Assembly (NCBI RefSeq): GCF_030814215.1
Contig: NZ_JAUSUT010000001.1
Coordinates: 558,001 to 622,000 of the forward strand
DNA length: 64,000 nt
Origin: Amycolatopsis thermophila
Lineage (GTDB): Bacteria; Actinomycetota; Actinomycetes; Mycobacteriales; Pseudonocardiaceae
Reading direction: 5' to 3'
Every line of letters starts with the position of its first letter. The stretch's first letter is position 1. Position numbers and translations under genes: made by a program. Below, piece by piece: positions 9,753-63,307 of the stretch. The notes below the pieces were generated by a model. The model was not told where the DNA came from, did not search any database, and saw nothing but the letters and a program-made list of their open reading frames with translations.

Positions 9753-9765
9753 TATAGTCGTTTAC
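9753..9765 (+). promoter_or_regulatory. TATAGT promoter, leaderless
   Basis: TATAGT at 9753-9758 is followed by CGTTTAC and then the ATG at 9766: exactly 7 nt between -10 box and start codon, so transcription should begin at or next to the A of ATG. Confidence 0.7.
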
Positions 9766-10011
9766 ATGCCGCATCGTTGGATCGACGACACCGCACCGCA
9801 CGAACTTCACGCCGCCGTCACCCATGCCGGCCCCGTCACGGTGCGCCGCGCCTACTTCGCCGACGGCACCGGCGCGGTCTCGATGCAACACCACTGCACC
9901 GGCCACGTGCGCGGCGTACGGACCCCGACGCACCGCGCGGCGCGGGAGCTCGCCGAACAGTTCGCCGATCGCGTCGCCAGCCGCCTGCCCGAACCCGCAG
10001 ACGCGGCATAG
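9766..10011 (+). CDS. Hypothetical protein (81 aa), predicted leaderless
   Basis: The start codon lies 7 nt after a TATAGT -10 box and has no ribosome site, so the mRNA is predicted leaderless. The protein contains HHCTGHV in the middle and ends with a helix (RAARELAEQFADRVASRL). It may be a small regulator, by analogy with the other leaderless genes here, but no HTH can be seen. Confidence 0.75.
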   Translation: MPHRWIDDTAPHELHAAVTHAGPVTVRRAYFADGTGAVSMQHHCTGHVRGVRTPTHRAARELAEQFADRVASRLPEPADAA

Positions 10012-10056
10012 ACCGCCGGCCGGGGCGCGGTGACCGCCCCTTCGCCCCGGCCGGTC
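10011..10056 (+). terminator. Intergenic GC hairpin
   Basis: GACC(GCC)GGCCGGGGCG pairs with CGCCCCGGCCGGTC directly after the stop of the 9766 gene. There is no T tract, so it may be an RNA-stability or processing hairpin and not a terminator. Confidence 0.4.
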
Positions 10057-10088
10057 TCCAATCGACCCACCACACGCCCTGGGGAATC

Positions 10089-10289
10089 ATGTCCGCAGAC
10101 CGCGACAGCCTCGCTCGCCACCGCGCCTACAGCCTGCTGATGATCACCGTCCTCCTGCTGACGGCGGCGCTGCTGCTGATGCTGATCACCCCTGCCGCGC
10201 CTGGTGTCACGTTCGGCACCGCCGTTGCTGCCGGGGCTGCGCTCGTCACCGCCGCCACCGTGCGCCCGAGGGGCGGCGGTCGCAGATGA
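10089..10289 (+). CDS. Two-helix membrane protein (66 aa)
   Basis: Two hydrophobic segments (about residues 15-35 and 40-58) follow a charged start; the tail is basic (VRPRGGGRR). The ATG follows GGGGAATC. The stop overlaps the start of the hydrolase-like membrane gene (GATGATGG). Confidence 0.75.
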   Translation: MSADRDSLARHRAYSLLMITVLLLTAALLLMLITPAAPGVTFGTAVAAGAALVTAATVRPRGGGRR

Positions 10290-11068
10290 TGGGCCGCACC
10301 CACGCGCTCACCGGCTGGTGCGCCGGGTTAGCGCTCGCGCCCGCGCTCGGCGCCGGTTCGCTGCATGAGGCCGTGGTGTTCGGCGCCACGACCGCCGGGT
10401 TCGCACTCCTGCCGGACCTCGACCACCCGGAGGCACGCGCATCACGGTCCCTCGGCCCCATCACCGGCGGCGCGTCGTGGGCGCTGCGCGCCGCCTCGAG
10501 CGTGCTGTACCGGGCGACGATGGGGCCGCGCGACGAGCAGTGGCGCACCGGCGAGCACCGGCACCTCTCGCACACCGTGCTATTCGCCGTCGCGCTCGGG
10601 TTCGCCACCGCCGCGGCCACCGCTGTCGGGGGCGCGGCCGTCGTCGGGGTAGTGGTGTGGTTCGCGCTCCTGCTCGCCGCTGGGGCGCTCGGCCGGTGGA
10701 TCTGGTTGGTCGGGGGCGGTGCCGCGGTAGTGTGGCTCGCCCAGGCCGGCGGTGACGTCGCAGGCCAGCTCGACCAGCTCGCCGGGTCGCTCGGGATCGC
10801 CGTCACTGTTGGGTGCTTCGTGCACTGCCTGGGGGACGCGCTCACCGAGTCCGGGTGCCCGTTCCTGTTCCCCATACCGATCCGCGGCGAGACCTGGTAC
10901 GAGATCCGACCCCCGGCGTTCCTGCGGTTCCACACCGGCTCCGCGTTCGAGGAGAACATCGTGTTCTCCGTGTTCGCAGTGCTCGGGATCGTGCTGGTGC
11001 CCGGGGTGTGGCCCGTACTCACCGAGATCTACACCAACGTCGGGAACACCGTGGAGGCCCTGTCATGA
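10286..11068 (+). CDS. YdjM-like membrane-bound metal-dependent hydrolase
   Basis: A 260-residue multi-pass membrane protein with the motifs of the YdjM/DUF457 group: THALTGW near the start, LLPDLDHPEA (about residues 41-50) and HRHLSHTVLF (about 90). The conserved His/Asp residues in these motifs would bind metal on one face of the membrane. The family is known from bacterial and phage genomes, and its substrate is not firmly established. It lies in a four-gene membrane-protein cluster with the 10089 and 11065 genes. Confidence 0.85.
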   Translation: MMGRTHALTGWCAGLALAPALGAGSLHEAVVFGATTAGFALLPDLDHPEARASRSLGPITGGASWALRAASSVLYRATMGPRDEQWRTGEHRHLSHTVLFAVALGFATAAATAVGGAAVVGVVVWFALLLAAGALGRWIWLVGGGAAVVWLAQAGGDVAGQLDQLAGSLGIAVTVGCFVHCLGDALTESGCPFLFPIPIRGETWYEIRPPAFLRFHTGSAFEENIVFSVFAVLGIVLVPGVWPVLTEIYTNVGNTVEALS

Positions 11069-11328
11069 CGTGGATCGACTGGGCATTCATCATCATGGTT
11101 CTGGCCGCGCTGATCGCGTTCGTCCTGTTCAAACACGTCGAGGACCGGCGTAGCGCTCGCGCCCGGGCCGAGCTGGCGGCCGCGGTGCGACGCGAGTTCA
11201 CCTGCCACGCCTCGACTGTGCGCGGCGGCCGGCACACGATCTGCGGGGCACGGCTGCCGTGGCCGGGTCAGCCCTGCCCAGCCGGTCACCTCCACACCGA
11301 CAACCCGCCCGGGAGCGACGCCGCCTGA
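11065..11328 (+). CDS. Small membrane protein (87 aa)
   Basis: One membrane helix (residues 5-22) is followed by a charged segment and two Cys pairs with His (FTCHAS, HTICGARLPW, PCPAGH), a possible Zn ribbon. The ATG overlaps the previous stop (TCATGA). Confidence 0.75.
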   Translation: MTWIDWAFIIMVLAALIAFVLFKHVEDRRSARARAELAAAVRREFTCHASTVRGGRHTICGARLPWPGQPCPAGHLHTDNPPGSDAA

Positions 11329-11346
11329 TCAACAACGCCCGGCCGC

Positions 11347-11700
11347 TCACCGTGGCCGGTGGCGCGCCTTGCGCTGCTCCAGGCCCATCGCGCGGAGCAG
11401 GTTCAGCGCGGCGCGGCGGATGTCTCGCCCGTCGCCGTGGCCGCCGATCACCCACAGCAGCTCCGCCAGCGCGACGCCGGCGTCCTTCTGCAGCCGGTCG
11501 AGGTAGCGCGCGATCTCTGGTGCCCAGCGGCCGTGCAGGGTGGCGACGGGTTCACCGTCGGCGAACTGCTCACGGAGCACGATGTCGCCGCGGTCGGTGT
11601 GCTCGACGACCAGGAACGGCAGGCGCCCGGAGATCTTGCGCCACTGGTCGGCGAGTTCAGCGATGCGCGCGCGTTCGGCGCGGCCCTGGTCGTCACCCAC
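11347..11700 (-). CDS. Hypothetical protein under a putative SOS box (117 aa)
   Basis: A mostly helical protein with a central beta segment (GDIVLREQFADGEPVATL) and a C-terminal helix ending RKARHRPR. A near-perfect LexA box is 9 bp upstream of the start, so DNA-damage induction is likely. No family recognised. It converges with the 11065 gene. Confidence 0.75.
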   Translation of the reverse strand: MGDDQGRAERARIAELADQWRKISGRLPFLVVEHTDRGDIVLREQFADGEPVATLHGRWAPEIARYLDRLQKDAGVALAELLWVIGGHGDGRDIRRAALNLLRAMGLEQRKARHRPR

Positions 11701-11708
11701 CCCTTGAG

Positions 11709-11724
11709 TAGAACATGTGTTCGA
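11709..11724. promoter_or_regulatory. LexA (SOS) box
   Basis: TAGAACATGTGTTCGA differs at one position from the actinobacterial consensus TCGAAC-N4-GTTCGA. It precedes the 11347-11700 gene. Confidence 0.7.
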
Positions 11725-11754
11725 CTTGATCGCCAGATGGGTGGGAGCGAGCTG

Positions 11755-12402
11755 TCAGCCGGCCGCGCCTGCTCCCTCGCGGCGCTCGCGGCGAGCCTGT
11801 CGTCGGGCCTCTAACCGGGCCGGGGCTTGGTAGACCTCCTCAAGCACCTCGCCCATGAGCTCGAGAATCTCGGCCGACTCTTCCTCGAATACCGGCTCGA
11901 CGAAATCTCCGTGGGCCATGTCGTTGCCCAAGAACCGAACCTCGTGGGCCTGTTCCCGCACCAACTCGCGAATGAGACCGCGGGTGTGCAGCTCGTTGAT
12001 CTTGCTGTCCAGATTCCCGCCGGTAATGCCCTTGTCCTTTGCGGTCGCCTCGATCACGGAGCGGGCGAGCAACACCGCGGATCGGAACGATCCGATGCTG
12101 TGGTCGGCGTGAGCCTCTGAGGCGGCGCTTGCGATATGGTCCGGAACGTCCGGAAAGTCGCGGCCGATCGGGTGTCTCGGTAGCCAGATGACCGGGATCT
12201 CTCCGCGATGCATCTGCGCGAGAATCGACCTACCGACACCGGAGTTTGTGAACTTTTGTGCCGTCCGCGCGATGGAGAGCTGGCCGCATTCGTCGCAGGC
12301 AAAGACCGCACTCCACGTATCGTCTACAGCCCGCCTTGCCTCATCGCCGCGAGGCGTCTGGTGGGCCGAAACGCCGCAATGCCAACACACCCGGTTTGCC
12401 AT
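11755..12402 (-). CDS. DUF4145-domain protein with N-terminal Zn ribbon
   Basis: The N-terminus has two Cys pairs (CWHCG, ACDECG) and the C-terminal 100 residues match DUF4145: SFRSAVLLARSVIEATAKDKG, LDSKINELHTRGLI, LREQAHEVRFLGNDMAHG. DUF4145 often accompanies restriction and other defence proteins, and its conserved RN-like and HG residues recall HEPN domains. The start MANRVCWHCG at 12402 is preferred to the longer frame to 12441. Together with its neighbours it looks like accessory cargo. Confidence 0.85.
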   Translation of the reverse strand: MANRVCWHCGVSAHQTPRGDEARRAVDDTWSAVFACDECGQLSIARTAQKFTNSGVGRSILAQMHRGEIPVIWLPRHPIGRDFPDVPDHIASAASEAHADHSIGSFRSAVLLARSVIEATAKDKGITGGNLDSKINELHTRGLIRELVREQAHEVRFLGNDMAHGDFVEPVFEEESAEILELMGEVLEEVYQAPARLEARRQARRERREGAGAAG

Positions 12403-12472
12403 CCGCAGGATCTTAGCGGGGACGTACGACGGTGCCCGCATGCCGGACCCACTGCGCGGGCAGGACTAGACA

Positions 12473-12526
12473 CGAGAAAGCCCCAGCGGGGTTGGTATCC
12501 ATCCCGGCCCGCTGGGGCTCTCTCGT
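12473..12526. terminator. Bidirectional terminator hairpin
   Basis: GAGAAAGCCCCAGCGGG pairs with CCCGCTGGGGCTCTCTC around a 15-nt loop. It separates the DUF4145 gene from the TerD-domain gene. Confidence 0.75.
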
Positions 12527-12629
12527 CGTCAATGGCTGGAGGAGTGGAGAGGGCTACAGTCACATCCGAAGTGTTTGAGAAGGAAGTCCTCTCGATGCCT
12601 CCGTGAACCATTGTAGCGCAACAGTTTCG

Positions 12630-15114: not shown

Positions 15115-15143
15115 ACCTTACACAAGTTGCGCAACTGCGGCAA
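15115..15143 (-). promoter_or_regulatory. Promoter with GTTGCGCAAC palindrome
   Basis: TTGCCG (15138-15143) and TAAGGT (15115-15120) are 17 bp apart on the minus strand. The spacer contains the perfect 12-bp palindrome AGTTGCGCAACT (15125-15136). It drives the 14892-15077 gene. Confidence 0.75.
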
Positions 15144-23829: not shown

Positions 23830-23858
23830 ACCTTACACAAGTTGCGCAACTGACGCAA
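23830..23858 (-). promoter_or_regulatory. Promoter with GTTGCGCAAC operator
   Basis: TTGCGT (23853-23858) and TAAGGT (23830-23835) lie 17 bp apart on the minus strand, with the palindrome GTTGCGCAAC at 23841-23850 in the spacer. It drives the operon 23.8 to 18.2 kb. Confidence 0.8.
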
Positions 23859-23916: not shown

Positions 23917-23945
23917 TTGGCACACTCCGGCAAGTTGTGTAAGGT
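23917..23945 (+). promoter_or_regulatory. Divergent promoter, leaderless
   Basis: TTGGCA (23917-23922), 17 bp, TAAGGT (23940-23945), then 7 nt to the ATG at 23953. It shares the CAAGTTGTGTAAGGTTGG sequence type with the divergent promoter 80 bp away. Confidence 0.75.
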
Positions 23946-23952: not shown

Positions 23953-24435
23953 ATGACAGCGCAACAGGGCATCGCCGAGATCAGCGCACAGGAACTCCGT
24001 ACCCGCAAGGCCGGCAGCGACGAGTCCGCCTGGTCCGACGTGCTCAACGACGCCGAGATCCGCAACACCGCCACCTACGTGCGGCGGCGCGGACGGCTGA
24101 TGATGCTCGCGCTGAACCCGACCACCTACGCCCGACTCTCCGGCCTCGTCGACGGCGCGAACGCTCCGGCTCCACAGCGGATCGTGTCTCCGCCGCGCCC
24201 GGTGAACGGCAGCGAGCGGCTGGACCTCTCGCACATCACCGACCCGAACGCGCGGGTCATCATGGACTCGCGGCTGGCGTTCCGGGAGCTGGCGCAGATC
24301 CAGCCGCGCGTGGAGAACGGCTGGCATGTGACGGTGGTGCGGTGGGATCGCCCGGCCGCGGTGTTCGTGCCGCCGTCATGGGCGCCGCAGCACGCCCTGG
24401 AGGCCGCGTTGGAGATGGCCCACTCGGGGGACTAA
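23953..24435 (+). CDS. Phd/YefM-like DNA-binding protein, leaderless (160 aa)
   Basis: The N-terminal 75 residues resemble the Phd/YefM antitoxin fold: ISAQELRTR, SDVLNDAEI, TATYVRRRGRLMMLALNPTTYARL. The C-terminal part is a second, unidentified helical/beta domain. The ATG follows the -10 box by 7 nt, so the mRNA is predicted leaderless. It sits divergently from the operon whose promoter bears the palindrome GTTGCGCAAC, making it a candidate repressor of that promoter. No toxin gene follows directly. Confidence 0.8.
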   Translation: MTAQQGIAEISAQELRTRKAGSDESAWSDVLNDAEIRNTATYVRRRGRLMMLALNPTTYARLSGLVDGANAPAPQRIVSPPRPVNGSERLDLSHITDPNARVIMDSRLAFRELAQIQPRVENGWHVTVVRWDRPAAVFVPPSWAPQHALEAALEMAHSGD

Positions 24436-25623: not shown

Positions 25624-25860
25624 TTAGGCGTGGCTGTTGCGGTGCTTGTCGGCCTCGTACTTGGCGAACGTCAGGGTCGGCTCGATGAAGTACTTGTTGG
25701 TGAGGCGTTCACCGCCCGGCAGGTAGACGGCCCAGCCGCGGCCTTCCCGGCGGATCTGGTAGCCCTCGTAGTTTTCGTAGGTGTTGCGATCTTTGCGGAC
25801 CCATGCGCCGGTCTGGAGGTCGTGGCGGTGCTGGTTGTTCTGGGCGACCGTGGGGTGCAT
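25624..25860 (-). CDS. Small hypothetical protein (78 aa)
   Basis: ATG at 25860 after GAAACGAGGAGGAACC, a strong ribosome site. Contains EGYQIRREGRGWAVYLPGGERLTN, which looks like a small beta-sheet core. It follows a TATAGT promoter at 25895. Confidence 0.8.
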   Translation of the reverse strand: MHPTVAQNNQHRHDLQTGAWVRKDRNTYENYEGYQIRREGRGWAVYLPGGERLTNKYFIEPTLTFAKYEADKHRNSHA

Positions 25861-25894
25861 GGTTCCTCCTCGTTTCCCCTGCTCTCTGTTAACG

Positions 25895-25900
25895 ACTATA
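25895..25900 (-). promoter_or_regulatory. TATAGT-family promoter
   Basis: On the minus strand GGGGTATAGTCGTTAACAG; -10 box TATAGT. It is 35 bp upstream of the 25860 start. Confidence 0.65.
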
Positions 25901-25997
25901 CCCCAGAGGGTGGGGTGGGACCACAACTCCGCAGGTGCTCCCCAGCACAGCAGTCGGGGCGGCAGCAACCGCCACCGCCCCGCTCACCCATCCGCCT

Positions 25998-27838: not shown

Positions 27839-28405
27839 TTAGGCGTTGCGGGGGGTTTTGACGGATGCGCGGTAGATGCCGTCGCTGACGGTGTCGTACC
27901 GGCCGTACTGGTAGGGGCCGCCGCGCAGCTGCTCGTGCTCGGGCGCGTCGGCGGGGAGGCCGGACTTGCGGGCGACGAGGGCGCGCAGTTCCTCGCGGAA
28001 CTCTGGCGAGATGCGGCGTTGGCGGTTGATGTAGTCGGAGAGGAACTGGACCAGCTCGGCGTTGGCGCAGCAGCGGGAGTCGTGGACACCGTTGCGATCG
28101 CGGCTGTCGGCGCCGTAGGTCTCGGCGACGCGGGCGCCGTGCTCGGGGCAGTACCAGGAGCTGGCGTTGTAGGCGCAGTCGGTGCGGCCGTCGAACCGCT
28201 CGCCGGCGAACGCGCCGGTGATCTGCTGGACCTGGTCCTCGGTGGGGCCGTCGGTCCAGGTGATGTCGACGGAGGCGCCGCCGCTGTAGCGGCTGGTTCG
28301 GACGGAGAACTTGACGCCGGGGAACGTGGCCTTGAGGTGCTTGCGGATGAGCTTCGCGGCTTCGGCGCTGTCGATGTAGCGGGCCGGTGCGGCGGTGGTC
28401 TCCAT
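27839..28405 (-). CDS. LPD29-domain protein (188 aa)
   Basis: The N-terminal 75 residues (YIDSAEAAKLIRKHLKATFPGVKFSV, SGGASVDITWTDGPTEDQV) resemble LPD29, a small domain of the large polyvalent proteins of phages and plasmids. It also has Cys/His-rich loops (WYCPEH, DSRCCANAEL) in the second half. Start METTAAPARY follows the TATAGT promoter at 28447. The function of LPD29 is not established. Confidence 0.85.
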   Translation of the reverse strand: METTAAPARYIDSAEAAKLIRKHLKATFPGVKFSVRTSRYSGGASVDITWTDGPTEDQVQQITGAFAGERFDGRTDCAYNASSWYCPEHGARVAETYGADSRDRNGVHDSRCCANAELVQFLSDYINRQRRISPEFREELRALVARKSGLPADAPEHEQLRGGPYQYGRYDTVSDGIYRASVKTPRNA

Positions 28406-28446
28406 GGTGTTTCCCCCTTCGGTCGGTGTCCGTCCTGACGTAAATG

Positions 28447-28474
28447 ACTATACCCCTACTGTTGGGGATCGCAA
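28447..28474 (-). promoter_or_regulatory. TATAGT promoter with -35
   Basis: TTGCGA (28469-28474), 16 bp, TATAGT (28447-28452), then CATTTACG on the minus strand. Drives the LPD29 operon. Confidence 0.75.
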
Positions 28475-28566
28475 CACCGTGTCCGCGTGCTCAGCAGCAC
28501 ACCCGTAACGCCTCTGATCAGCAAAGATTCCCCGCAGGCCCTCTAGCCTGTTGCGACTCTTGTGGG

Positions 28567-28572
28567 TATAGT
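28567..28572 (+). promoter_or_regulatory. TATAGT promoter, divergent
   Basis: TATAGTCGTTTACATC, with a TGG extension before the box. It starts the 28610 operon; a leader with CGCAACCGCAAC and GAGGGGG ribosome site follows. Confidence 0.7.
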
Positions 28573-28609
28573 CGTTTACATCGCAACCGCAACACCCGAG
28601 GGGGACACC

Positions 28610-29095
28610 GTGGAAACCATCACCGCGCCGATCAACATCGACAAGCTCCAAGCCGCCTACGACGAGGCCGTCGCCACCACCGACCGCCTCCAGAACGAGG
28701 AAGCCGCCGCCCTCGACCGCCTGGACACCCGCGAAGCCGCGCGGCTCCACGTGCTGGCAGCCGCCTCCCGCGCCGGCTCCAACTTCCTGGCCGCGCTGAT
28801 CCAGCTCGACCGGTTCCGCAGCGCCGAGCGCCTGGAGTGGAAGCGGCACACCGTGTTCCAGCCGCACCGCGTGGACGACGGCAACCTGATCGCCCACCTG
28901 CCCGGCGGCGGCGAGCCGCTGTCGTTCCCGCTGGACTCCACCCTTCCGACCGAGCGCTACGACTCGCCGGTCGTGATCGACCCCGGCATGGGTGTTGTGC
29001 CCGTGGACGCCGCGAGCCTGGACGACCTGCACGGCGCGGTGCGCGCCTGGGCGCGGGTGTTCATCGGCCGTGACGACATCGAGTTCCCCGCCTGA
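28610..29095 (+). CDS. Helical protein (161 aa)
   Basis: GTG at 28610 with CGAGGGGGACACC. The first 60 residues look like a coiled coil (KLQAAYDEAVATTDRLQNEE). The rest is alpha/beta with no known motif. It opens a plus-strand operon to 36.3 kb. Confidence 0.8.
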   Translation: METITAPINIDKLQAAYDEAVATTDRLQNEEAAALDRLDTREAARLHVLAAASRAGSNFLAALIQLDRFRSAERLEWKRHTVFQPHRVDDGNLIAHLPGGGEPLSFPLDSTLPTERYDSPVVIDPGMGVVPVDAASLDDLHGAVRAWARVFIGRDDIEFPA

Positions 29096-32377: not shown

Positions 32378-32407
32378 TTGCCTCCTCGAACCCGTTACGG
32401 GTATAGT
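32378..32407 (+). promoter_or_regulatory. TATAGT-family promoter
   Basis: TTGCCT (32378-32383), 18 bp, TATAGT (32402-32407), CGTTAACA downstream. Starts the 32447 operon. Confidence 0.75.
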
Positions 32408-32446
32408 CGTTAACAACAGCGGATGGCCGCAACACCCGGAGGGCCC

Positions 32447-38705: not shown

Positions 38706-38812
38706 GCGCGAGTGGGGAGTGCTCCTTTCTGGGGTTGGGGTGGCGGGGCGCCCCGGTGAGGGGGGAGGGTCGGGGCGGCCCCGCCAGGTGGTTCTCGCAC
38801 CACCTGTTCGTG

Positions 38813-38842
38813 ACTATACCCGTCGATGTTGTGGTGCCGCAA
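38813..38842 (-). promoter_or_regulatory. TATAGT promoter with -35
   Basis: TTGCGG (38837-38842), 18 bp, TATAGT (38813-38818) on the minus strand. Drives the 38645 and 36626 genes after a leader of about 160 nt. Confidence 0.75.
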
Positions 38843-43821: not shown

Positions 43822-43981
43822 GCCGCTCCTCCTGCTCCCCGATCTCGGTAGTGGTATCGCTGACCGGTGCCCTGTCGGTTACAGGTCTCGGGTCCGCAAC
43901 GGGGTGGGCGAGGTAGTCGGCGATCGCGTCTTCCGGGTCGAGGTGCGCCCGCTCCGGCTGCACCCACACCGGCGCCGTCAC
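43775..43981 (-). CDS. Small protein after DnaB (68 aa)
   Basis: MTAPVWVQPERAHLDPED... GTG start overlaps the DnaB stop (GTGA). It overlaps the next gene by 47 bp in another frame. Acidic, no motif. Moderate confidence. Confidence 0.55.
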   Translation of the reverse strand: MTAPVWVQPERAHLDPEDAIADYLAHPVADPRPVTDRAPVSDTTTEIGEQEERRGEDANVRPVRALLR

Positions 43982-45456
43982 TGGCCGTCTCCGTAGAAGC
44001 TGCCGAACTGGGCGAAGTGGCGCCGGTCGGCGAGGGTGATCACCGCGTGGGAGCGGCCCTTGCGCTGCTTGTCCAGGATCAGGTCGACCTCCCCGGCGCG
44101 GGGGTTGTCCCCGCCGGTGCGGTCGCCGTACTGGGCGACGTCGTGCAGCAGCATGATCACGTCGGCGTCCTGCTGCAGCTTGTCGCTCGAGCGGATGTCG
44201 GAGGCCTTCGGCACGCCGCCGGAGCGTTCCTCCGGGCCGCGGTTGAGCTGGGCGACCAGGATGACGATGCACCCGAACTCCCCGGCCATCACCTTGAGCG
44301 ATCGGGACACCTCGCCGAAAGCCTGGTCCTCGCGGTCGGCGCGGGGCAGCTGCATCAACCCGATGTAGTCCACCACCACCACGCCGAGCTGCCCGACGCC
44401 GGATTCGCGTCGCACCTGGGAGCAGCGCGAGCGGATGTGCGCGAGGTTCACGGCCTTGGTGTCGTCGTAGTACATGAGCGCGCCCTCGGTCTCGTACCGG
44501 GCTGCGGCCTTGCGCAGCTTCTCCCGCTCGTAGTCCGTGGCCGGGGTCTTGCCGGTGGCCGAGTCGTGCCGCACCCCGGCGAGGGCGGCGAGGTCGCGGA
44601 TGTAGAGCTCGCGGCGCGTCATTTCCATCGAGAAGAACAGGGAGCACTCGCCGCGGTCGAACACGTAGTGGCGGGCGATCTGCGCGGCCCATGTCGACTT
44701 CCCGACACCGGAGCGGGCAGCGACCACCACGAGACCGCCGGTGGCGACGTCGAGCACGTCGTCGACGTCCGCGAGCCCGGTGGTCATCGACCCGGGGTCG
44801 GGCTCGCCCCAGTGGTCGAGGATGTCGGTGATCAGCCACGAGGAGTCCGCGGCGGACACCAGCTCTTGGGTGCCCAGGCCCAGCGTCTCCTGGAGGTACG
44901 TCTGGTGGGCCTGGTCGATGCGCGAGTCGAGCGAGCCGATGTCAAGCCGCGACGCCGCGGCCTGCCCCACAGCGCGGGCGAACTCGAGCGCGGCTCGGCG
45001 GCGGTATGCCTCGATGACCAGGTCGGCGTAGTAGGTGGCGTTCGCGGCGACCGACACCCGCTCGGTGAGGGTGAGCAGGTAGGGGGCTGCTCCGACCTTG
45101 GCCAGCTCACCCCGCCGTTCGAGCTCGTCGGCGACCTTGATGACGTCGATGCCGGACACGGACCGGTCGTCGAGGTCGCAGATCGCCTGCATGATCGCCT
45201 GGTGCTTGGGCAGGAACAGGTGCTTGGGCTGCAACAACCGCCGCACCTCCGCCAACGCCGGGTTGTTCATCGCCGCCGGCCGCCCGTCCACGTCGGTGGC
45301 CTGGATCGGCATCATCAGCGCGCCGAGCACGCTCATCTCGGCGTCGGCCTCAGTGCGGGTGGGGAACCAGCCGGTCGGGTCGCCGGGCTCGTCGTCGCCC
45401 GGTGGTTCCCATGGCACGGCGGCCGGGTCGTCTGTCATGCTGGTCAACGGATCCAT
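43978..45456 (-). CDS. dnaB: Replicative DNA helicase (DnaB family)
   Basis: A 492-aa DnaB homologue: N-terminal DnaB-N domain (DAEMSVLGALMMP, KHQAIMQAICDL), hinge, and RecA-type core with Walker A AARSGVGKST, SLFFSMEM, Walker B VVVDYIGLM, and LNRGPE. Unwinds DNA at the fork as a hexamer. It is transcribed in the same direction as, and lies downstream of, the DnaC-like loader and the initiator. The C-terminus (RRHFAQFGSFYGDGQ) is normal length for phage helicases. Confidence 0.96.
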   Translation of the reverse strand: MDPLTSMTDDPAAVPWEPPGDDEPGDPTGWFPTRTEADAEMSVLGALMMPIQATDVDGRPAAMNNPALAEVRRLLQPKHLFLPKHQAIMQAICDLDDRSVSGIDVIKVADELERRGELAKVGAAPYLLTLTERVSVAANATYYADLVIEAYRRRAALEFARAVGQAAASRLDIGSLDSRIDQAHQTYLQETLGLGTQELVSAADSSWLITDILDHWGEPDPGSMTTGLADVDDVLDVATGGLVVVAARSGVGKSTWAAQIARHYVFDRGECSLFFSMEMTRRELYIRDLAALAGVRHDSATGKTPATDYEREKLRKAAARYETEGALMYYDDTKAVNLAHIRSRCSQVRRESGVGQLGVVVVDYIGLMQLPRADREDQAFGEVSRSLKVMAGEFGCIVILVAQLNRGPEERSGGVPKASDIRSSDKLQQDADVIMLLHDVAQYGDRTGGDNPRAGEVDLILDKQRKGRSHAVITLADRRHFAQFGSFYGDGQ

Positions 45457-47819: not shown

Positions 47820-48077
47820 TCAGCTGGCGAGCTGGTCTTGCTCGTCGGCCGCGGTGAGCGGGGTGAGGATCGCCTTGATGTCGGACACGCGGACCCGGCG
47901 GCGGCCGCTGGGGAGTCGGACGTACTGGAGGTAGCCGTTGGCCATCCACTTCTCGATGGCGACGCGGGAGACACGTAGGCCGCCGGCTTTGAGGATGCGT
48001 TCGGCATCCAGGGCGGAGATCCACTCTTCGACGTCTGGGGGGATGGTCGGGGTCTTGCGGGTGGTGTTGTGATCCAT
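47820..48077 (-). CDS. HTH regulator, leaderless (85 aa)
   Basis: A MerR/excisionase-type winged HTH: LDAERILKAGGLRVSRVAIEKWMANGYL, then VRLPSGRRRVRVSDI. The ATG lies 7 nt after TTAGGT, and the spacer contains GTGCGCAACTTGTG, so a leaderless message controlled by the GTTGCGCAAC-type operator is predicted. It is the first gene of the replication module and may regulate it. Confidence 0.85.
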   Translation of the reverse strand: MDHNTTRKTPTIPPDVEEWISALDAERILKAGGLRVSRVAIEKWMANGYLQYVRLPSGRRRVRVSDIKAILTPLTAADEQDQLAS

Positions 48078-48084: not shown

Positions 48085-48110
48085 ACCTAACACAAGTTGC
48101 GCACTTTCGC
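48085..48110 (-). promoter_or_regulatory. Leaderless promoter of the replication module
   Basis: TTAGGT at 48085-48090 (minus strand) with the AACTTGTG extension; the -35 is poor. The ATG follows after 7 nt. Confidence 0.6.
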
Positions 48111-51933: not shown

Positions 51934-52677
51934 TCAGGCCGCGCCGGTGAACAGGGGCATGGTGATGCGGATCGGCCACTCGTAATGCACGTCGCGGTGG
52001 ATGTGCATGCCCTTGGCGCGGGCGTCGGCCTGCTCGGCCTGCACCCGGTACGCGGCGGCCTGGAACCGCTGCAACGCGTCCAGCGGCATCGTGGCGATGC
52101 GCGGGAACCGCTCGGCGATCCCCCACGCGAGCCGGGCCGCGGCGAGACAGTCCCCCGCGCTGGTGTGCGCGTCCTCCGGGGTCAACTCGATGCCGTACGC
52201 GGCGCACGCCGGCCCGAGCTGCCGTTTCCCGTGCCGGGTCGGGTCCAGGCGTCGGTCCAGCACCAGCGGGTCGATCACGTACAGCGTGGAGCCGGCGTCG
52301 CGTACCAGCTCGTGCAGCGTCGGGAGCCCGTGGCGGGCGCACTCGGCGGCGAGCATGGTGAGGTCGAACGGGGCGTTGTAGATGACGAGTGGGGCCCCGG
52401 AGATGACCTGGTCGGCCAGCATCCCCACGAGCAGCCGCACCGCGTCGACGGCGGGGATGCCGTCAGTGCGGGCCTTCTCGGTGGTGATCCCATGCACCGC
52501 GGTCGCCTTCGCGGGGATCTCCACCCCTGGGTCGGCCAGGATCGTCTCGTGCCCGGCCCGCTCGCCCGGGCGCCAGCTCCACACGGTGCCGGTGACGATC
52601 CGGTCCCGCTCGGGCTCGACCCCCGAGCTCTCGATGTCGAACGCGACCAGCGGGCCGCGGTGCCAACCGTCCCCCAT
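51934..52677 (-). CDS. DnaQ-like 3'-5' exonuclease
   Basis: A 247-aa DEDDh exonuclease: motif I AFDIESSG (residues 11-18), motif II IYNAPFD (about 95-101) and motif III HTSAGDCLAAAR (about 170-180). It removes mismatched nucleotides or degrades single-stranded DNA. Typical size for phage exonucleases; the C-terminal 60 residues are helical. Last gene of the nuclease operon. Confidence 0.92.
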   Translation of the reverse strand: MGDGWHRGPLVAFDIESSGVEPERDRIVTGTVWSWRPGERAGHETILADPGVEIPAKATAVHGITTEKARTDGIPAVDAVRLLVGMLADQVISGAPLVIYNAPFDLTMLAAECARHGLPTLHELVRDAGSTLYVIDPLVLDRRLDPTRHGKRQLGPACAAYGIELTPEDAHTSAGDCLAAARLAWGIAERFPRIATMPLDALQRFQAAAYRVQAEQADARAKGMHIHRDVHYEWPIRITMPLFTGAA

Positions 52678-52693: not shown

Positions 52694-53167
52694 TCAGGCG
52701 GCTGGGACGCGGGTGGCGGCAGCGCACGTGGCGCGCTGGTAGCCGATCCCGGTGCACGCCTCGAACACGTCTTGGGGGTACACGTCGATGAGGTCCAGGG
52801 CGGCGGAGAGCCGGGCGAAGTAGGCGCGCGGCAGGAGCGCGTACACCTCGTCGCGCCACGCGATGCCGTGCATAGTTTCGGCCTGGCGGGCCAGCTCGGC
52901 GGGGGTGATCGACTCCGGGTCGCCGATGGTGGTGTCGTAGGGGGCCACGACCTGGTCGAGGGTGAGGAGCCCGTGCCGGGCGGACATGATCAGTACGCGG
53001 GCGCTGCGGCCGCCCTCGCGGTCCTGGGCGGCGAGGGTTTCGGCGGTCGCGAGCACGTGTCGGAAGTGCGGGGAGGTGTAGAGGTCCCGGGCCGGCATGG
53101 GACGGTCGGCCTTGATGGCGGCGCAGGGGACGATGTAGGTGACCGGGCGGGGTTCCTCGTGCGTCAT
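52694..53167 (-). CDS. DUF6884-like protein, leaderless (157 aa)
   Basis: Pattern YIVPCAAIKADRPMPARDLY, VLIMSARHGLLTLDQVVAPYDTTI fits DUF6884, a small phage family of unknown function with a probable nucleotide-binding core. ATG follows TATAGT by 7 nt, so it is predicted leaderless. 16 bp separate it from the exonuclease. Confidence 0.82.
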   Translation of the reverse strand: MTHEEPRPVTYIVPCAAIKADRPMPARDLYTSPHFRHVLATAETLAAQDREGGRSARVLIMSARHGLLTLDQVVAPYDTTIGDPESITPAELARQAETMHGIAWRDEVYALLPRAYFARLSAALDLIDVYPQDVFEACTGIGYQRATCAAATRVPAA

Positions 53168-53174
53168 GTAAACG

Positions 53175-53180
53175 ACTATA
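53175..53180 (-). promoter_or_regulatory. TATAGT promoter, leaderless
   Basis: TATAGTCGTTTACATG on the minus strand with 7 nt from -10 box to ATG. No -35 at the expected distance (TTGCGA lies only 9 bp away). Confidence 0.65.
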
Positions 53181-53220
53181 CCCGCTATTTCGCAACCGTG
53201 CGCTGCTGCGGCACTCGCGG

Positions 53221-57567: not shown

Positions 57568-57575
57568 CGGGTGGG

Positions 57576-58515: not shown

Positions 58516-59457
58516 TCACCACGCGGTGGTGGTGTCGAACTCGCCGCGCGCGTGCGCGGCCTCGTAGCCGCTCACGGCGTAGAGCGGCAGGCTGATCGGG
58601 ACGACGCCGTCGGTGTAGCTCGGCCAGTAGCCGGTGGCGATGCATTCCTGGTAGATGCGGATGGCCTTGCGGTTGAGCCGATCGCCCCAGTACACGGCCT
58701 CTTCGTCCAGCTCGACGACGGTCGGAAGGTACGGGGGTTCCTTCTCCTGGAAGATGAACAGGAACACGATCTCGTCGGCGACGTCGAGCGCGCGCAGCCC
58801 GGCGCGGTAGAACGCCTCCTGCTGGTGGTAGCCGTGCTCGTACACGGCGCGCTGGATGGCGTGGGGCTCGGCGCTGCGGGCCGTCTTGTAGTCGACGATG
58901 GTCAGGCGGCCGTTGTGGTCGATCGCGCGCATCCAGTCCACACGCGCCCGGCACATCACCCCGCTTCGGTCCTCCCAGATCAGCGTCTGTTCAGGCCGGC
59001 CACCGTCGGCCGGGTCCAGCAGCGCCCCGGCGTGCTCGTGGTTCCGCAGGGCAGCGGCCATTGCGTTGATCCGCTCGTACTGGTGGGGAAGCAGCGGGAT
59101 CGCTCCACGGGCGCGGGCTTGCTCGGCGGCCTGTTGCGCCGCCTTGGTGCGCCAGTCCTTCGCGTCGACGACGACGAGATCCGGGCCGCAGCCGAGCACC
59201 TTCCGGTGCGCGGCGGATCCGAAGTCGAGGTCCTTGTTGGGCTCGGAGTGGTGTTTGCGGTCGTGCTCGAAGATCGCCGGGCAGGACGGGGGCAGCAGCT
59301 TCCTCGCGCCGGACGACGACAGCGAGCCGCCGGGGACCGGGTCGGCGTGGTACGCCTCTTCGGGGACGTCGTCGTAGATGCCGGGCTCGTCCAGCACAAC
59401 CGGCTGGTCGAGCCCGGCAGGAGCGGTGTCCTGCGCGGGCTCGAGGACGGCGGTCAT
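58516..59457 (-). CDS. RecE-like PD-(D/E)xK exonuclease (313 aa)
   Basis: A phage exonuclease with LSSSGARKLLPPSCPAIFEHDRK, FGSAAHRKVLG and MCRARVDWMRAIDHNGRLTIVDYKTARSA (catalytic D and DxK). It resembles the DUF3799/RecE C-terminal domain. Works with RecT: it degrades one strand from double-strand ends. ATG at 59457 overlaps the small upstream gene. Confidence 0.93.
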   Translation of the reverse strand: MTAVLEPAQDTAPAGLDQPVVLDEPGIYDDVPEEAYHADPVPGGSLSSSGARKLLPPSCPAIFEHDRKHHSEPNKDLDFGSAAHRKVLGCGPDLVVVDAKDWRTKAAQQAAEQARARGAIPLLPHQYERINAMAAALRNHEHAGALLDPADGGRPEQTLIWEDRSGVMCRARVDWMRAIDHNGRLTIVDYKTARSAEPHAIQRAVYEHGYHQQEAFYRAGLRALDVADEIVFLFIFQEKEPPYLPTVVELDEEAVYWGDRLNRKAIRIYQECIATGYWPSYTDGVVPISLPLYAVSGYEAAHARGEFDTTTAW

Positions 59458-59723: not shown

Positions 59724-59763
59724 GGTGTCTGCCCCCTCTGGCTGGCGTCAACTTCTGTTTGTG

Positions 59764-59792
59764 ACTATACCCCTAGACAGGTATGGCCGCAA
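59764..59792 (-). promoter_or_regulatory. TATAGT promoter with -35
   Basis: TTGCGG (59787-59792), 17 bp, TATAGT (59764-59769), then CACAAACAG on the minus strand. Drives the recombination operon. Confidence 0.8.
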
Positions 59793-59819: not shown

Positions 59820-60071
59820 CTAGCCGGGCCGCCTGCGCGTCACCACGAACGCCGACAGTGGATGCCCGAGCGCACGCGCCAACGCCTGCGCCGTCTCCGG
59901 CATAGGCCGCGTTTTACCTGCTAGGACACGGCTCACAGTGGCCGTAGACACTCCCGAGCGGCGCGCAAGCTCCAGCCCGGTCCACCCCCTCGACATCCGC
60001 ACCCTGTTGAACAACTCGGACGAGTAGCACACCTCGCCGGTGTTCTGTTTCCCCCTCAACAGTTGCGACAT
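59820..60071 (-). CDS. XRE/Cro-like HTH repressor, leaderless (83 aa)
   Basis: HTH RMSRGWTGLELARRSGVSTATVSRVLAGKTRPM in the middle (Cro/CI type), followed by a short helix (QALARALGHPLSAF). The ATG at 60071 follows TTAGTG by 7 nt, so a leaderless message is predicted. Divergent from the 60221 HTH gene, with the promoters in between: a typical lysogeny-switch arrangement. Confidence 0.9.
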   Translation of the reverse strand: MSQLLRGKQNTGEVCYSSELFNRVRMSRGWTGLELARRSGVSTATVSRVLAGKTRPMPETAQALARALGHPLSAFVVTRRRPG

Positions 60072-60220
60072 GTTGCGACACTAACACAACACTTTAGGTA
60101 GATTGCGCACAAAGAGTTACTCGGAGTTGCGGCCATTGGGGTGGCGCCGAAAGCGGGCAAAGGTTACTCACCGGTGTTCCACCGCGCTTCAGCGCGTTGC
60201 ACCGCGCTATGCTCCCGCGT
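60072..60220. promoter_or_regulatory. Divergent regulatory region of the HTH pair
   Basis: 150 bp between the two divergent HTH genes. Contains TTAGTG (minus, 60079-60084) and TATGCT (plus, 60208-60213) as -10 boxes and several TTGCGCA/TTGCGG-like words. Operators for either repressor would be here. Confidence 0.6.
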
Positions 60221-60730
60221 ATGGGCGACAACACCACTCTGAACTGGCAAAACCTGGACGACGAGTTAGATCGTCGCAGGAACGAACTGAACATGACCTG
60301 GGGCGACGTGGCCGATAAGGCCGGTCTCTCCGAGACCATGCTGCGCAAGGTTCGCCGCGGCCAATCCACGCGCCCCACACCGCGCACCAAAGCGGCAATT
60401 GAGAAAGCGGTGTCGTGGGAAACCGGCAGTTTCGACGCCGTGCTCCGCAACGAGCCTCCGACGCCCAAGGGCGACACACCCGGCGCCCGCGGCACTCACC
60501 TGGCCGCGGTCCCGACTGCGCGCAGTGCGACGGCCACGAGTGCTTCCGAGCCGGCGGCGACCGCAACACCCGCACAGGACGTGCCGGAGGATGCGGAGCG
60601 TGAGCTGTTCGACCGGTGGCGCAGCCGGGTGGGCGAACGCTTCAGCCACGACTGGTTCTGGGAGCTCGTCGAGGACTTCACGACCGTCCGGAAGATGGCC
60701 ATCCAGGGATCTCGCACTGACCGCAAGTAG
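60221..60730 (+). CDS. XRE-family HTH protein, leaderless (169 aa)
   Basis: HTH ELNMTWGDVADKAGLSETMLRKVRRGQSTRPTPRTKAAIEKAV; long flexible middle (Ala/Thr/Pro), then a C-terminal helix (AERELFDRWRSRVGERFSHDWFWELVEDF). The ATG follows TATGCT by 7 nt. Candidate immunity repressor or its antagonist. Confidence 0.88.
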   Translation: MGDNTTLNWQNLDDELDRRRNELNMTWGDVADKAGLSETMLRKVRRGQSTRPTPRTKAAIEKAVSWETGSFDAVLRNEPPTPKGDTPGARGTHLAAVPTARSATATSASEPAATATPAQDVPEDAERELFDRWRSRVGERFSHDWFWELVEDFTTVRKMAIQGSRTDRK

Positions 60731-60910
60731 TGTTACAGGGTTTCACCGTCCCTCCCCCGCGCGGGGAAGGGTCACGAACTGAATTCGCCTGTTCGGACGA
60801 AAGCTCGTCGCGATCGGCACGGCAAATTCGGACGACTGGTTGAACAGCCACCAGGGGTAAGGGCTATCGTCTACGGAGGAACCAATTTTCTCCACCCCGG
60901 GGGGGTAACG

Positions 60911-61126
60911 TTGCGTAACATCCTTGCGGTCGCTTCACTGGTGGCGGGCGTGTCCGCTGCCGTCACGGCGACCGTCGTCCGGCGTGGTCTCGAAGCCGAG
61001 ATCGACCGGAAGGCGTCGAGCTTCAGCCTGCGAAAGCTGGAGAACCGGCTGGACGCGCGGCTGGATGCCCTTGAAGCGTTCCAGGAGTTCAAGGCTGCCG
61101 CCGCGACGGCCGGCACTGCGGCCTGA
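60911..61126 (+). CDS. Small membrane protein, TTG start (71 aa)
   Basis: TTG at 60911 preceded by GGGGGGGTAACG; one membrane helix (ILAVASLVAGVSAAVTATVV), then a coiled coil (KLENRLDARLDALEAFQEF). It is separated from the HTH gene by a promoter-like TTGAAC-19-TATCGT and ends in a terminator. Might be a lysogen-expressed protein. Confidence 0.7.
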   Translation: MRNILAVASLVAGVSAAVTATVVRRGLEAEIDRKASSFSLRKLENRLDARLDALEAFQEFKAAAATAGTAA

Positions 61127-61141
61127 CGCGACTCATAGAGG

Positions 61142-61193
61142 AAGCCCCGGCTGGTCCCCTCGGGGCGGGGAAATTGACCAGCCGGGGCTTTTT
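61142..61193 (+). terminator. Strong terminator
   Basis: AAGCCCCGGCTGGT pairs with ACCAGCCGGGGCTT followed by TTTC; the loop is about 20 nt. Confidence 0.85.
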
Positions 61194-61307
61194 CATGCCG
61201 ACGAAGAAATGGTTACGGTCCCCTCGACCCTATTCACAGAAATCACACGCGCACTCAAACCCGGCAGAACCGCATCACGGTTCTGCCGATGTAATTACCC
61301 ACACGAA

Positions 61308-61628
61308 CTAACTCGCCTTGCGGGGCTTCCTGTTCCGCGCGGCGCTTCGGCTCGACGCGCCGAAGACGCTGACGTCCACCGCTGGCGCCGCAACTGCCTG
61401 CCCGGGAACCTCCCCCGCAGAGGGGGTTTCCTTCGCGGGTTGTTCGTGAAGCTGGGCGATCTGCTTGATGTGCTCGTCGGTGAACCGCACGGGCCCGCGC
61501 TTGCCACCGAGCCGCAGGAACGGGAACCGCCCCTGTTGCACCCCGCTACGCACCCAGTACACGGACGTCTTGAACAGCTGGGCGACTTCCTGGACCGTGT
61601 ACGTCGTGATCGGGGCGGCGTGGGTCAT
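61308..61628 (-). CDS. Excisionase-like HTH protein (106 aa)
   Basis: YTVQEVAQLFKTSVYWVRSGVQQGRFPFLRLGGKRGPVRFTDEHIKQI is a MerR/AlpA-type winged HTH like phage excisionases. The ATG follows TATTGT by 6 nt and the palindrome GTTGCGCAAC lies at 61648-61657 upstream. The position 1.8 kb from the attachment site suits Xis or an integration regulator. C-terminus basic (RSAARNRKPRKAS). Confidence 0.85.
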   Translation of the reverse strand: MTHAAPITTYTVQEVAQLFKTSVYWVRSGVQQGRFPFLRLGGKRGPVRFTDEHIKQIAQLHEQPAKETPSAGEVPGQAVAAPAVDVSVFGASSRSAARNRKPRKAS

Positions 61629-61634
61629 GACTCC

Positions 61635-61657
61635 ACAATACGCCACAGTTGCGCAAC
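61635..61657 (-). promoter_or_regulatory. Leaderless promoter with palindrome
   Basis: TATTGT (61635-61640) on the minus strand with the palindrome GTTGCGCAAC (61648-61657) in the spacer. Confidence 0.6.
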
Positions 61658-61696
61658 AGGCCACAACAGACCGCAACAGTTGGATTATCCGACAGG

Positions 61697-62224
61697 TCAG
61701 GAGCGCGGATGGGGCGCAGGGCCCGGCTTCCGCTTGCGGTTCTCGGCGAAGTGCTCGGCAGCCGACCGCAACCAGTACCCCGTCACAACTGGTCGAGGGA
61801 ACGGGTGCGGCCGACCTTCACCCGCGGCGCGCTGCCGCTCCTTCTCCAGCTTGTAGATCCACTTGTCCGTGACCTCGCACAGCTCTGCGAACTCGGCAGC
61901 CGAGACCATCGGGGGAATCGACAGGTTGGCTAGGCGACGTTCGCTCTCGGCCTCGGACAGCACCTCCGCTGCATCCCAGCCGGTCACGGTATAGCCGCTG
62001 GCGGCGAGCTGTTCGACGAATGCGCGCCGGGCCTCGACGAGTGCGTCAATCGGATCGGGGGTCGCGCTGGTCATGAGGATGTTGAAGGCGGCCACGTCTC
62101 CGGTCTCGTGCACGCCGACGGAGAGGAGGCTGTCAGCGGCGATGCGCCGGCCAAGTGCGAAGGCTTGCTCGCGCGGCACTGGTCGATTCAGGGTGGCGGA
62201 CAGGGTGATGCTCCAGGGCTCCAT
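61697..62224 (-). CDS. AlpA/MerR-like regulator, leaderless (175 aa)
   Basis: A C-terminal AlpA-type HTH (MVSAAEFAELCEVTDKWIYKLEKERQ, then PHPFPRPVVTGYWLRS) follows an N-terminal alpha/beta domain (SITLSATLNRPVPREQAFALG). The ATG at 62224 follows AAGGAT by 7 nt, with TTGAAT 17 bp further upstream, so it is leaderless. Likely a regulator of the integration region. Confidence 0.82.
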   Translation of the reverse strand: MEPWSITLSATLNRPVPREQAFALGRRIAADSLLSVGVHETGDVAAFNILMTSATPDPIDALVEARRAFVEQLAASGYTVTGWDAAEVLSEAESERRLANLSIPPMVSAAEFAELCEVTDKWIYKLEKERQRAAGEGRPHPFPRPVVTGYWLRSAAEHFAENRKRKPGPAPHPRS

Positions 62225-62231
62225 GTCAACT

Positions 62232-62260
62232 ATCCTTGCTTGACAAGCGAAAAAATTCAA
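62232..62260 (-). promoter_or_regulatory. Leaderless promoter
   Basis: TTGAAT (62255-62260), 17 bp, AAGGAT (62232-62237) on the minus strand, 7 nt before the ATG. CTTGTCAAG palindrome lies in the spacer. Confidence 0.65.
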
Positions 62261-62329
62261 GTACCAGGAGTGGGGCTACGCTGGGAAAGCTGGTCGGGGG
62301 TGCTTCCTTCACCCCCGACCAGCCCGCGA

Positions 62330-62584
62330 TCATTCGCTACGCGGCACCTCGCCGTGGATCCCCTGGTGGTGATCCGGCGGCCAAGGCCACTGCAGCCCGT
62401 CCCAGACGATCCAGGTCAGGAGCACGCGGCGCAGGTAGCGCTCGTGTTCGTCCTGGAACAATTCGATCGGGGCAAAGCGACCCTTGCCAGCCGGCGTCTC
62501 AAGGAACACCGTGGCGTCAATGATGACCACCGTCCAGCCCTGGTCGCGCATCGCGAGGATGATCGCGGTTCCCAGCTCTCCCAT
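62330..62584 (-). CDS. Small hypothetical protein (84 aa)
   Basis: GAGGAGGTGACAACGA before the ATG at 62584. Contains TVVIIDATVFLETPAGKGRFAPIELFQDEHERYLRRV, predicted beta then helix. No family recognised. Confidence 0.75.
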   Translation of the reverse strand: MGELGTAIILAMRDQGWTVVIIDATVFLETPAGKGRFAPIELFQDEHERYLRRVLLTWIVWDGLQWPWPPDHHQGIHGEVPRSE

Positions 62585-62737
62585 TCGTTGTCACCTCCTC
62601 TCATTGGGTGACACGACCATATCCTCGTTAGGAGACTTTTGTCGCTTAACTGGGCGGGAGAAGGGCGCAGATCACCCGTCATCGGACTCGCTACGACCTC
62701 GTGCGCAGAAGCCCGCCTCACCGCTACGGTCACGCCC

Positions 62738-63307
62738 GTGACCGACCCATTCGACATCCCCAAAGCGCGGGGCACTCTAAGGGTGCTGCAGCTCGCGCAC
62801 GACCGGTGGACCGAACTGTACGAGGGCATCGAGGGGCTGAAGTTCGACGACCTCAACGGCCAGGAGGAGGTCGCAGCGATCATCCGCGGGCCAGCCGTCG
62901 AGATGATGATGTGGGCGCGCGGACTCGACGACCTCTGCCGCGGGATGCCCGAGCGGCGGGACGGTCAGCTGGTGCCGACCGAGCCCGACCTGCCCGGCTA
63001 CGAGACCGCTCGAGCCACAGTCGCGGGCCTCGTCGACGGCGCCCGCTACGCGACGAACCGCGAGGTGCATCAGTTGCTCGCGCTCATGCAGCCCAAGGGG
63101 GCTCTGAAGTTCCCACTCACCTTCCCGCTTGCGTTCGACCACTTCGGCGGCGTGCAGTGGCTGCACGAGATGCAACTGCCGCCCGCCGCGGAGGAACGCC
63201 GAGGGCAGGCGCCGCTGCGCCAGGCGTACGTCGACCACCTCGCCGGCCGGCCGGTCGGCCCCACGCTCGACGGCCTGCGCCAGTGGTTCGAGAGCCAGCT
63301 CTCGTAG
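62738..63307 (+). CDS. Hypothetical protein, leaderless GTG start (189 aa)
   Basis: GTG at 62738 lies 7 nt after TACGGT. The protein is helical (LQLAHDRWTELYEGIEGL; GPAVEMMMWARGLDDL) with a C-terminal LRQWFESQLS. The gene ends 75 bp before the first arm of the attachment-site repeat. Role unknown; could be a boundary cargo gene. Confidence 0.78.
   Translation: MTDPFDIPKARGTLRVLQLAHDRWTELYEGIEGLKFDDLNGQEEVAAIIRGPAVEMMMWARGLDDLCRGMPERRDGQLVPTEPDLPGYETARATVAGLVDGARYATNREVHQLLALMQPKGALKFPLTFPLAFDHFGGVQWLHEMQLPPAAEERRGQAPLRQAYVDHLAGRPVGPTLDGLRQWFESQLS

Follow-up and report, generated by a model that had tools for sequence, protein, structure and literature searches.

Leaderless-like gene starts and two repeated promoter-like sequences in a prophage of Amycolatopsis thermophila

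Why do several genes of one prophage begin at the same short distance behind a -10 hexamer? The question is raised by a stretch of 64,000 nucleotides (nt) of the single-contig, 7.3-Mb genome of Amycolatopsis thermophila (C1:558001-622000; below, the window), which lies in the right part of a prophage of ~121 kb integrated in tRNA-Gly. An original prediction, drawn from this sequence, held that at least eight genes start exactly 7 nt after the hexamer, that they are a leaderless set enriched in regulators, and that the mobile element may translate its regulatory genes without ribosome sites. It overlooked that five of its nine cited genes lie on two repeated, prophage-specific promoter-like sequences that also precede genes with leaders: 9766 and 53167 on the sequence called class A here, and 23953, 48077 and 60071 on class B.

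A 26-bp repeat of the end of tRNA-Gly(tcc) occurs at C1:500287-500312, with an integrase gene directly inside this left copy, and again at C1:621459-621484. PHROGs matches in the prophage include portal, major head, and tape-measure proteins. The 108 genes called in the window have a median length of 137 amino acids (aa), against medians of 157-321 aa in 12 chromosomal control stretches. Negative coordinates below continue the window numbering to the left of the window. The right end of the element is marked as follows.

63459..63484, no strand: attR, 26-bp repeat of the tRNA-Gly end; other copy at C1:500287-500312

Two repeated sequences and one proposed start rule

The 10-mer GACTATACCC (GGGTATAGTC) ranks second among the over-represented 10-mers of the window. 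Its wider pattern, GGTATAGT, occurs at nine places there, each with G before and C after. The full class A sequence, GGGTATAGTCRNNNAC (the core plus RNNNAC), has 11 copies in the 7.3-Mb genome, all at C1:508965-617772, within the prophage. Conservation spans 17 bp, with ten bases strictly conserved and flanks that are unrelated, and a scan of 224 kb found no one-mismatch copy that retains the TA and the final T of the box. Three of the 18 congeners have one class A copy each. Across 390 genomes of the family, the core forms a set with unrelated flanks only in the genome of the window; elsewhere it belongs to long dispersed repeats in G317 (six copies) and G170 (three), and 24 other genomes have one each. 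Every class A copy points at a downstream gene, with inferred leaders of 0, 0, 3, 27, 30, 32, 33, 34, 34, 42, and 160 nt; the 30-nt value follows a start correction, and the 3-nt leader lies outside the window (-49016). A TTG -35 at 16-19 nt accompanies 4 of the 11 copies and 8 of the 16 copies of Saccharomonospora phage PIS 136, the closest phage record (both raw counts).

Class B, TTGTGTWAGK, has seven copies in the 7.3-Mb genome, all in the prophage, and none in 320 kb of control sequence. Four copies give leaders of 24-32 nt, and at the other three the inferred +1 coincides with the ATG of 23953, 48077, and 60071. A TTG -35 with a spacer of exactly 17 bp is present in five of the seven. 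The palindrome GTTGCGCAAC, found eight times in the prophage versus twice in 320 kb of host DNA, abuts three class B cores and also stands before 61628.

With +1 taken as the eighth base after the hexamer, a position that the search patterns do not fix, all 34 sites have a purine there (class A, 11/11; PIS 136, 16/16; class B, 7/7). Each of the 18 prophage copies (11 of class A, 7 of class B) precedes a gene start in promoter geometry; from the inferred +1 to the start codon there are 0-3 nt at six copies, 24-42 nt at eleven, and 160 nt at one. Evidence thus suggests that 7 nt is a distance from -10 to +1 shared by the leaderless and leadered genes of one promoter class, which would explain the "exactly 7" of the original prediction.

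The class A copies in the window are listed with the gene that each precedes; LuxR-type and other helix-turn-helix genes are marked HTH, Shine-Dalgarno sites SD, and transcription start sites TSS.

9172..9187, + strand: leader 42 nt to 9230, then LuxR-type HTH gene 9355-9723
9750..9765, + strand: inferred TSS is the A of ATG 9766, leaderless
25888..25903, - strand: leader 27 nt to gene 25624-25860
28440..28455, - strand: leader 34 nt to the LPD29-domain gene 27839-28405
28564..28579, + strand: divergent from 28440..28455; probable start GTG 28610, with a 30-nt leader and SD-like GAGGGGG (the gene was called at 28562-29095, and its start is better placed at GTG 28610)
32399..32414, + strand: leader 32 nt to 32447
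38806..38821, - strand: leader 160 nt to 38645
53168..53183, - strand: inferred TSS is the A of ATG 53167, leaderless
59757..59772, - strand: leader 33 nt to 59723, a length shared by a weakly similar gene of PIS 136

The class B cores are as follows.

769..778, - strand: leader 30 nt to the gene starting at 730
15116..15125, - strand, with GTTGCGCAAC palindrome: leader 30 nt to 15077
23831..23840, - strand, with GTTGCGCAAC palindrome: leader 32 nt to 23790
23935..23944, + strand: divergent from 23831..23840; inferred TSS is the A of ATG 23953
48086..48095, - strand: inferred TSS is the A of ATG 48077
60080..60089, - strand: inferred TSS is the A of ATG 60071

Matches to these patterns were also seen outside the genome. 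In viral contigs, both class patterns give scattered matches, mostly in AT-rich contigs. Five GC-rich viral contigs (L112, L123, L127, L132, and L137) each match GGGTATAGTNNNNGACATG, a leaderless-like start with the same core. Single leaderless-like GGGGTATAGT boxes lie beside inverted ATACCC or GGGTA parts at five loci of other family genomes (L165, L168, L171, L175, and L178); two of these boxes precede starts that resemble, by eye, a heavy-metal chaperone, and the arrangement could be operator-over-promoter control. Near contig ends of G317, loci L192-L197 carry a dispersed repeat with GGTATAGTMGAACACATG, a leaderless-like start inside a longer repeat. Within the prophage, CGCAACA/TGTTGCG is another element-wide motif besides class A and class B: it occupies 52 places in the window versus 6.7 expected and 88 in the whole prophage, and 26 of the 52 are intergenic, though intergenic DNA makes up 21% of the window. 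PIS 136 shows CGCAACCA in like fashion, with 32 copies, 20 of them intergenic, in 16% of its DNA.

Spacing, leaderless-like starts, and regulators

All nine hexamers and spacings of the original prediction are present in the DNA as it wrote them. Counted by the pattern TANNNT, the distance is 7 nt at five genes (9766, 23953, 53167, 60221, and 62738) and 6 nt at three (48077, TAGGTT; 60071, TAGTGT; 61628, TATTGT), and the class B register restores the predicted 7 nt at 48077 and 60071. The ninth gene, 62224, falls out of the set, as it has no TANNNT at 4-9 nt and its "AAGGAT" includes an AAGGA SD sequence. The expectation that such spacing would be hard to get by chance is borne out. TANNNT peaks sharply 6-7 nt before starts, at about tenfold over chance in the window, where it precedes 9 of 106 genes versus 0.91 expected (Poisson P = 5e-7; expected counts were taken from other spacings before starts).

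The same measure argues against a leaderless mode special to the element. TANNNT at 6-7 nt precedes 10 of 172 prophage genes (1.26 expected) and 23 of 308 host genes (1.60 expected), the host control being 16 of 17 non-prophage stretches (L008 was left out for no special reason), and the two rates agree (Fisher P = 0.58). Starts called without regard to SD sites give 9/104 in the window, 9/170 in the prophage, and 24/308 in the host; among genes with at least 40 nt free upstream, the counts are 10/83 for the prophage versus 18/208 for the host (Fisher P = 0.38). Open reading frames (ORFs) below 30 codons or under the caller's score limit, including 59820-60071, are uncalled in these counts. 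The equal rates indicate that the spacing is the usual mark of leaderless genes in the host, with no excess in the element, and the idea that the element specialises in such genes was rejected on this ground.

A start codon placed on the inferred TSS probably yields a message that needs no ribosome-binding leader. Seven of the eight cited starts with TANNNT at 6-7 nt have no SD score, and 23953 has a weak one; the codons just upstream score as non-coding at all nine. Leaderless starts are plausible for eight of the nine genes, with good cases at 23953, 48077, 53167, 60071, 60221, and 61628 and doubtful ones at 9766 and 62738. The nine cited genes are listed below.

9766..10011, + strand: 81-aa ORF, leaderless-like; no family matches, coding score poor
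23953..24435, + strand: 160-aa gene, leaderless-like; no Pfam match; PIS 136 homologue leaderless-like
47820..48077, - strand: 85-aa HTH_17-like gene, leaderless-like here and in PIS 136
52694..53167, - strand: DUF6884 gene, leaderless-like
59820..60071, - strand: 83-aa HTH_3 gene, leaderless-like; divergent from 60221; missed by the codon-usage caller
60221..60730, + strand: 169-aa HTH_3 gene; TATGCT 7 nt before ATG; start and -10 kept in PIS 136
61308..61628, - strand: excisionase-like gene; TATTGT 6 nt before ATG; centre of a GTTGCGCAAC copy 25 nt before the start
61697..62224, - strand: gene cited in the prediction; AAGGA SD; no TANNNT at 4-9 nt
62738..63307, + strand: 189-aa gene; TACGGT 7 nt before GTG; no homologues found

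The link to regulators holds in a post hoc comparison. Among window genes that head a unit with 40 nt free upstream, nine with a box at 6-7 nt were set against 44 without TANNNT at 5-8 nt; HTH matches at E<=0.001 occur in 3 of 9 versus 1 of 44 (P = 0.013), or in 4 of 10 versus 1 of 44 when the uncalled 60071 is added (P = 0.003, also post hoc). Two leadered regulators, WhiB -7902 (outside the window) and the LuxR-type 9355 (second in its unit), lie outside the 53 scanned genes. The five HTH assignments of the prediction fared unevenly: 60071 and 60221 have Pfam HTH matches, 48077 and 61628 have such matches below the curated cut-off, and 62224 has a weak PHROG match only (E = 0.005). DUF6884 was confirmed at 53167. 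The Phd-like label of 23953 finds no Pfam match, while its PIS 136 homologue is annotated PhdYeFM; family searches gave nothing for 9766 and 62738. Gene 48077 heads a leftward gene run that includes dnaB (43978-45438). Close to attR and the excisionase-like 61628, the divergent HTH genes 60071 and 60221 resemble a lysogeny switch, in which 60071 is proposed as the Cro-like side and 60221 as the repressor side.

The counterpart set in phage PIS 136

PIS 136 (JX006077) has a capsid protein 71% identical over 83% of the query, and it is related to the prophage in the structural region, the FtsK-like protein, WhiB, and DnaB. A tblastn search with the capsid matched 843 records, among which only PIS 136 covers >80% of the query, and the FtsK-like protein matched only PIS 136 and a Microcystis phage among phage records. 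In viral contigs, the DUF6884 query found no further relative and the capsid query a single 7-kb contig (L038); FtsK-like and portal alignments found none in genomes or viral contigs. The promoter comparison is one with a single relative.

PIS 136 contains 16 copies of GGTATAGT, most commonly as GGTATAGTAGACAACA. The core agrees with that of the prophage, as mostly does ACA around +1, while the base after the core is C in every prophage copy and never C in PIS 136. The promoter-like sequence is kept at -49016 and PIS 89371 (24% identity; leader of 3 nt in both), at WhiB -7902 and PIS 32907, at 59457 and PIS 72479 (33-nt leaders in both), and at the unit 38286-36626 and PIS 55026-53577, where only the second genes match. 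It is not kept at the divergent PIS pair 38243/38258, whose prophage homologues -4808/-4351 have no copy.

At E 1e-3, three of the nine cited genes (23953, 48077, and 60221) have a PIS 136 homologue and six have none. The original prediction proposed that orthologous elements be compared for conserved spacing, and all three homologues are leaderless-like: TAACCT 6 nt before GTG for 23953, TATAGT at 7 nt for 48077, and TATGCT at 8 nt for 60221, which aligns from residue 1. At the rate of leaderless-like genes in PIS 136 (5 of 138), all three homologues would be leaderless-like by chance with a probability of 5e-5. The promoter-like sequence of 48077 is class B in the prophage and class A in PIS 136.

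Two observations concern the wider gene content. A tRNA-Cys (gca) lies within the prophage at window 8658-8729, and PIS 136 has a tRNA-Cys as well. Left of the window, at C1 ~540-544 kb, four neighbouring FolE-, QueE-, QueD-, and QueC-like genes, with a DpdA-like gene after them, were picked out by eye from the starts of their proteins. The set resembles that for preQ0/7-deazaguanine and may suit phage DNA modification.

Explanations, known systems, and meaning

The arrangement is probably best explained by a temperate phage that has two repeated promoters of its own for some of its genes, from which either leaderless or leadered messages would be made. Both promoter classes would place +1 on a purine, separated by 7 nt from the -10 hexamer. 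A start codon on +1 would give a leaderless mRNA translated by the host's normal leaderless route, and a start codon some 24-42 nt past +1 would give a leader, mostly with an SD. Class B, with its TTG -35 at 17 bp in five of seven copies and GTTGCGCAAC by the core in three, would most likely be a housekeeping-sigma promoter under a phage repressor. Its -35, its -10, and in several copies the palindrome between them would make an early promoter set under repressor control, and it would serve one side of the divergent pair 60071/60221. For class A (GGGTATAGTCRNNNACA), which lacks a fixed -35, a DNA-binding factor encoded by the phage is most likely required or acts as a gate, and the specificity of this factor would have diverged from that of PIS 136. 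WhiB-like proteins are a candidate for this factor because a WhiB gene stands under class A in both phages and the prophage lacks a Sigma70_r2 match. A bolder proposal is possible and should be held tentatively: class A may be a new actinophage promoter system in which host RNA polymerase is directed or gated by a phage factor (a WhiB-like candidate), the recognition sequence differing between two related phages through a coordinated change at nearly every copy, and the leaderless starts of switch and replication genes having been kept by selection despite a promoter-class swap under one of them.

Several observations weigh against the promoter explanation. None of the 50 Sigma70_r2 matches in the genome lies in the prophage, and a phage sigma factor was rejected on this ground. 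In PIS 136, three copies have no called start within 160 nt; the homologue of the 28610 gene (PIS 52139-52600) has no class A copy nearby on its strand; and the match of 59457 to PIS 72479 is weak (E = 3e-4, in one search direction only). The PIS 136 starts of the 23953 and 48077 homologues were re-called in this analysis and differ from those deposited. Within the prophage, 9766 has a non-coding score over its first 15 codons, and an in-frame TTG with an SD 99 nt upstream makes the start of 62738 uncertain. Gene 24686 (dCTP deaminase) has TATCGT 6 nt before its start, whereas its PIS 136 homologue lacks a box there and has an SD-like leader; some spaced hexamers are thus not leaderless starts.

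Promoters of a host SigB/SigF-type alternative sigma factor have the consensus -10 GGGTAT and -35 GTTT, and GGGTAT does lie within the invariant class A block. That class A is such a promoter is highly improbable all the same: GTTT at 13-19 nt accompanies 0 of 11 prophage and 1 of 16 PIS 136 copies, the third G is absent from most PIS 136 copies, and the host genome has no further class A copies. The starts could instead be misassigned, with translation beginning elsewhere and the -10 boxes preceding untranslated leaders or lying within genes. The poor coding score of 9766, the upstream TTG of 62738, and weak SDs before internal ATGs of 53167 and 60221 would fit, but upstream codons score below zero for all nine starts, 60221 is aligned from residue 1, and three PIS 136 homologues keep the box at 6-8 nt, which makes this very unlikely.

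The two remaining alternatives draw on published systems (cited by PMC accession here and below). It is quite unlikely that only ordinary host-type leaderless genes are involved, with the spacing being the host's distance from -10 to TSS and the repeats incidental duplications. TANNNT at 6-7 nt is indeed equally frequent in the 308 host genes, and 21% of mRNAs are leaderless in Streptomyces coelicolor, many of them for transcription regulators (PMC4895711); however, the genome has neither class A nor class B outside the prophage, class A conservation stops at the 17-bp site with unrelated flanks, and PIS 136 carries its own diverged set. Unlikely, too, is that both classes are mainly operators, that is, dispersed and oriented sites for a phage repressor, comparable to the stoperators of cluster A mycobacteriophages, with the -10 likeness secondary. 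The copies are asymmetric, oriented with transcription, and genome-specific, with ten class A bases strictly conserved, and the motif differs between related phages, as it does for stoperators (PMC6550527). Yet most stoperators lie away from promoters (PMC6550527), whereas all 18 prophage copies show a purine at the expected +1, with a leader of 0-42 nt at 17 of them (including 60071 and the corrected 28610; the other has 160 nt), and five end exactly at the ATG.

The components of the favoured explanation have precedents, and phage-specific repeated promoters are a known kind. Repeated phage-specific promoters of an actinophage are found in phiC31, with its early promoters and repressor sites. 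Leaderless genes are common in high-GC bacteria of this kind. Leaderless genes of actinobacteria, leaderless genes predicted for phages, stoperators, and start-associated sequences (SAS) are already in print. Actinobacterial leaderless mRNAs likewise have a -10 directly before the start codon and no SD (PMC4895711, PMC4681348), and the prophage differs in that several such genes share two prophage-specific promoter sequences. In S. coelicolor, 264 leaderless mRNAs showed no linked function, while three of five leaderless mRNAs of Escherichia coli encode prophage regulators (PMC4681348). Leaderless prophage regulators include lambda cI and the E. coli genes dicA, racR, and ymfK (PMC4681348), and leaderless phage genes were predicted in cluster O phages (PMC4351075) and for Adephagia gene 90 (PMC11373665). 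These share leaderless phage regulator or operon-first genes with the prophage; the available parts of these reports describe no link to a repeated promoter that also drives leadered genes. Stoperators share short, asymmetric, oriented repeats with a motif that varies between related phages (PMC6550527), and the prophage copies differ in that each is placed as a promoter. The SAS of cluster K phages are also short conserved oriented repeats near starts of non-structural genes, without an exact copy in the Mycobacterium smegmatis or Mycobacterium tuberculosis genomes (PMC3203893). SAS typically lie 3-7 bp before the start, with a proposed translational role (PMC3203893), whereas class A holds a -10 box with 0-160 nt from +1 to the start. 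A literature search, which covered few subscription papers, returned no description of the class A or class B motifs among the matches listed.

The ordinary part of this locus is its leaderless starts, which occur at the host rate; the unusual part is a pair of promoter-like families restricted to one prophage, of which class A is matched by a diverged set in a related phage. Should the promoters prove real, they would map the operons of the phage and offer a route to the phage regulator that reads them. With the same promoter used both with and without a leader in one genome, they would also allow a natural test of the reason for which some phage genes retain leaderless messages.

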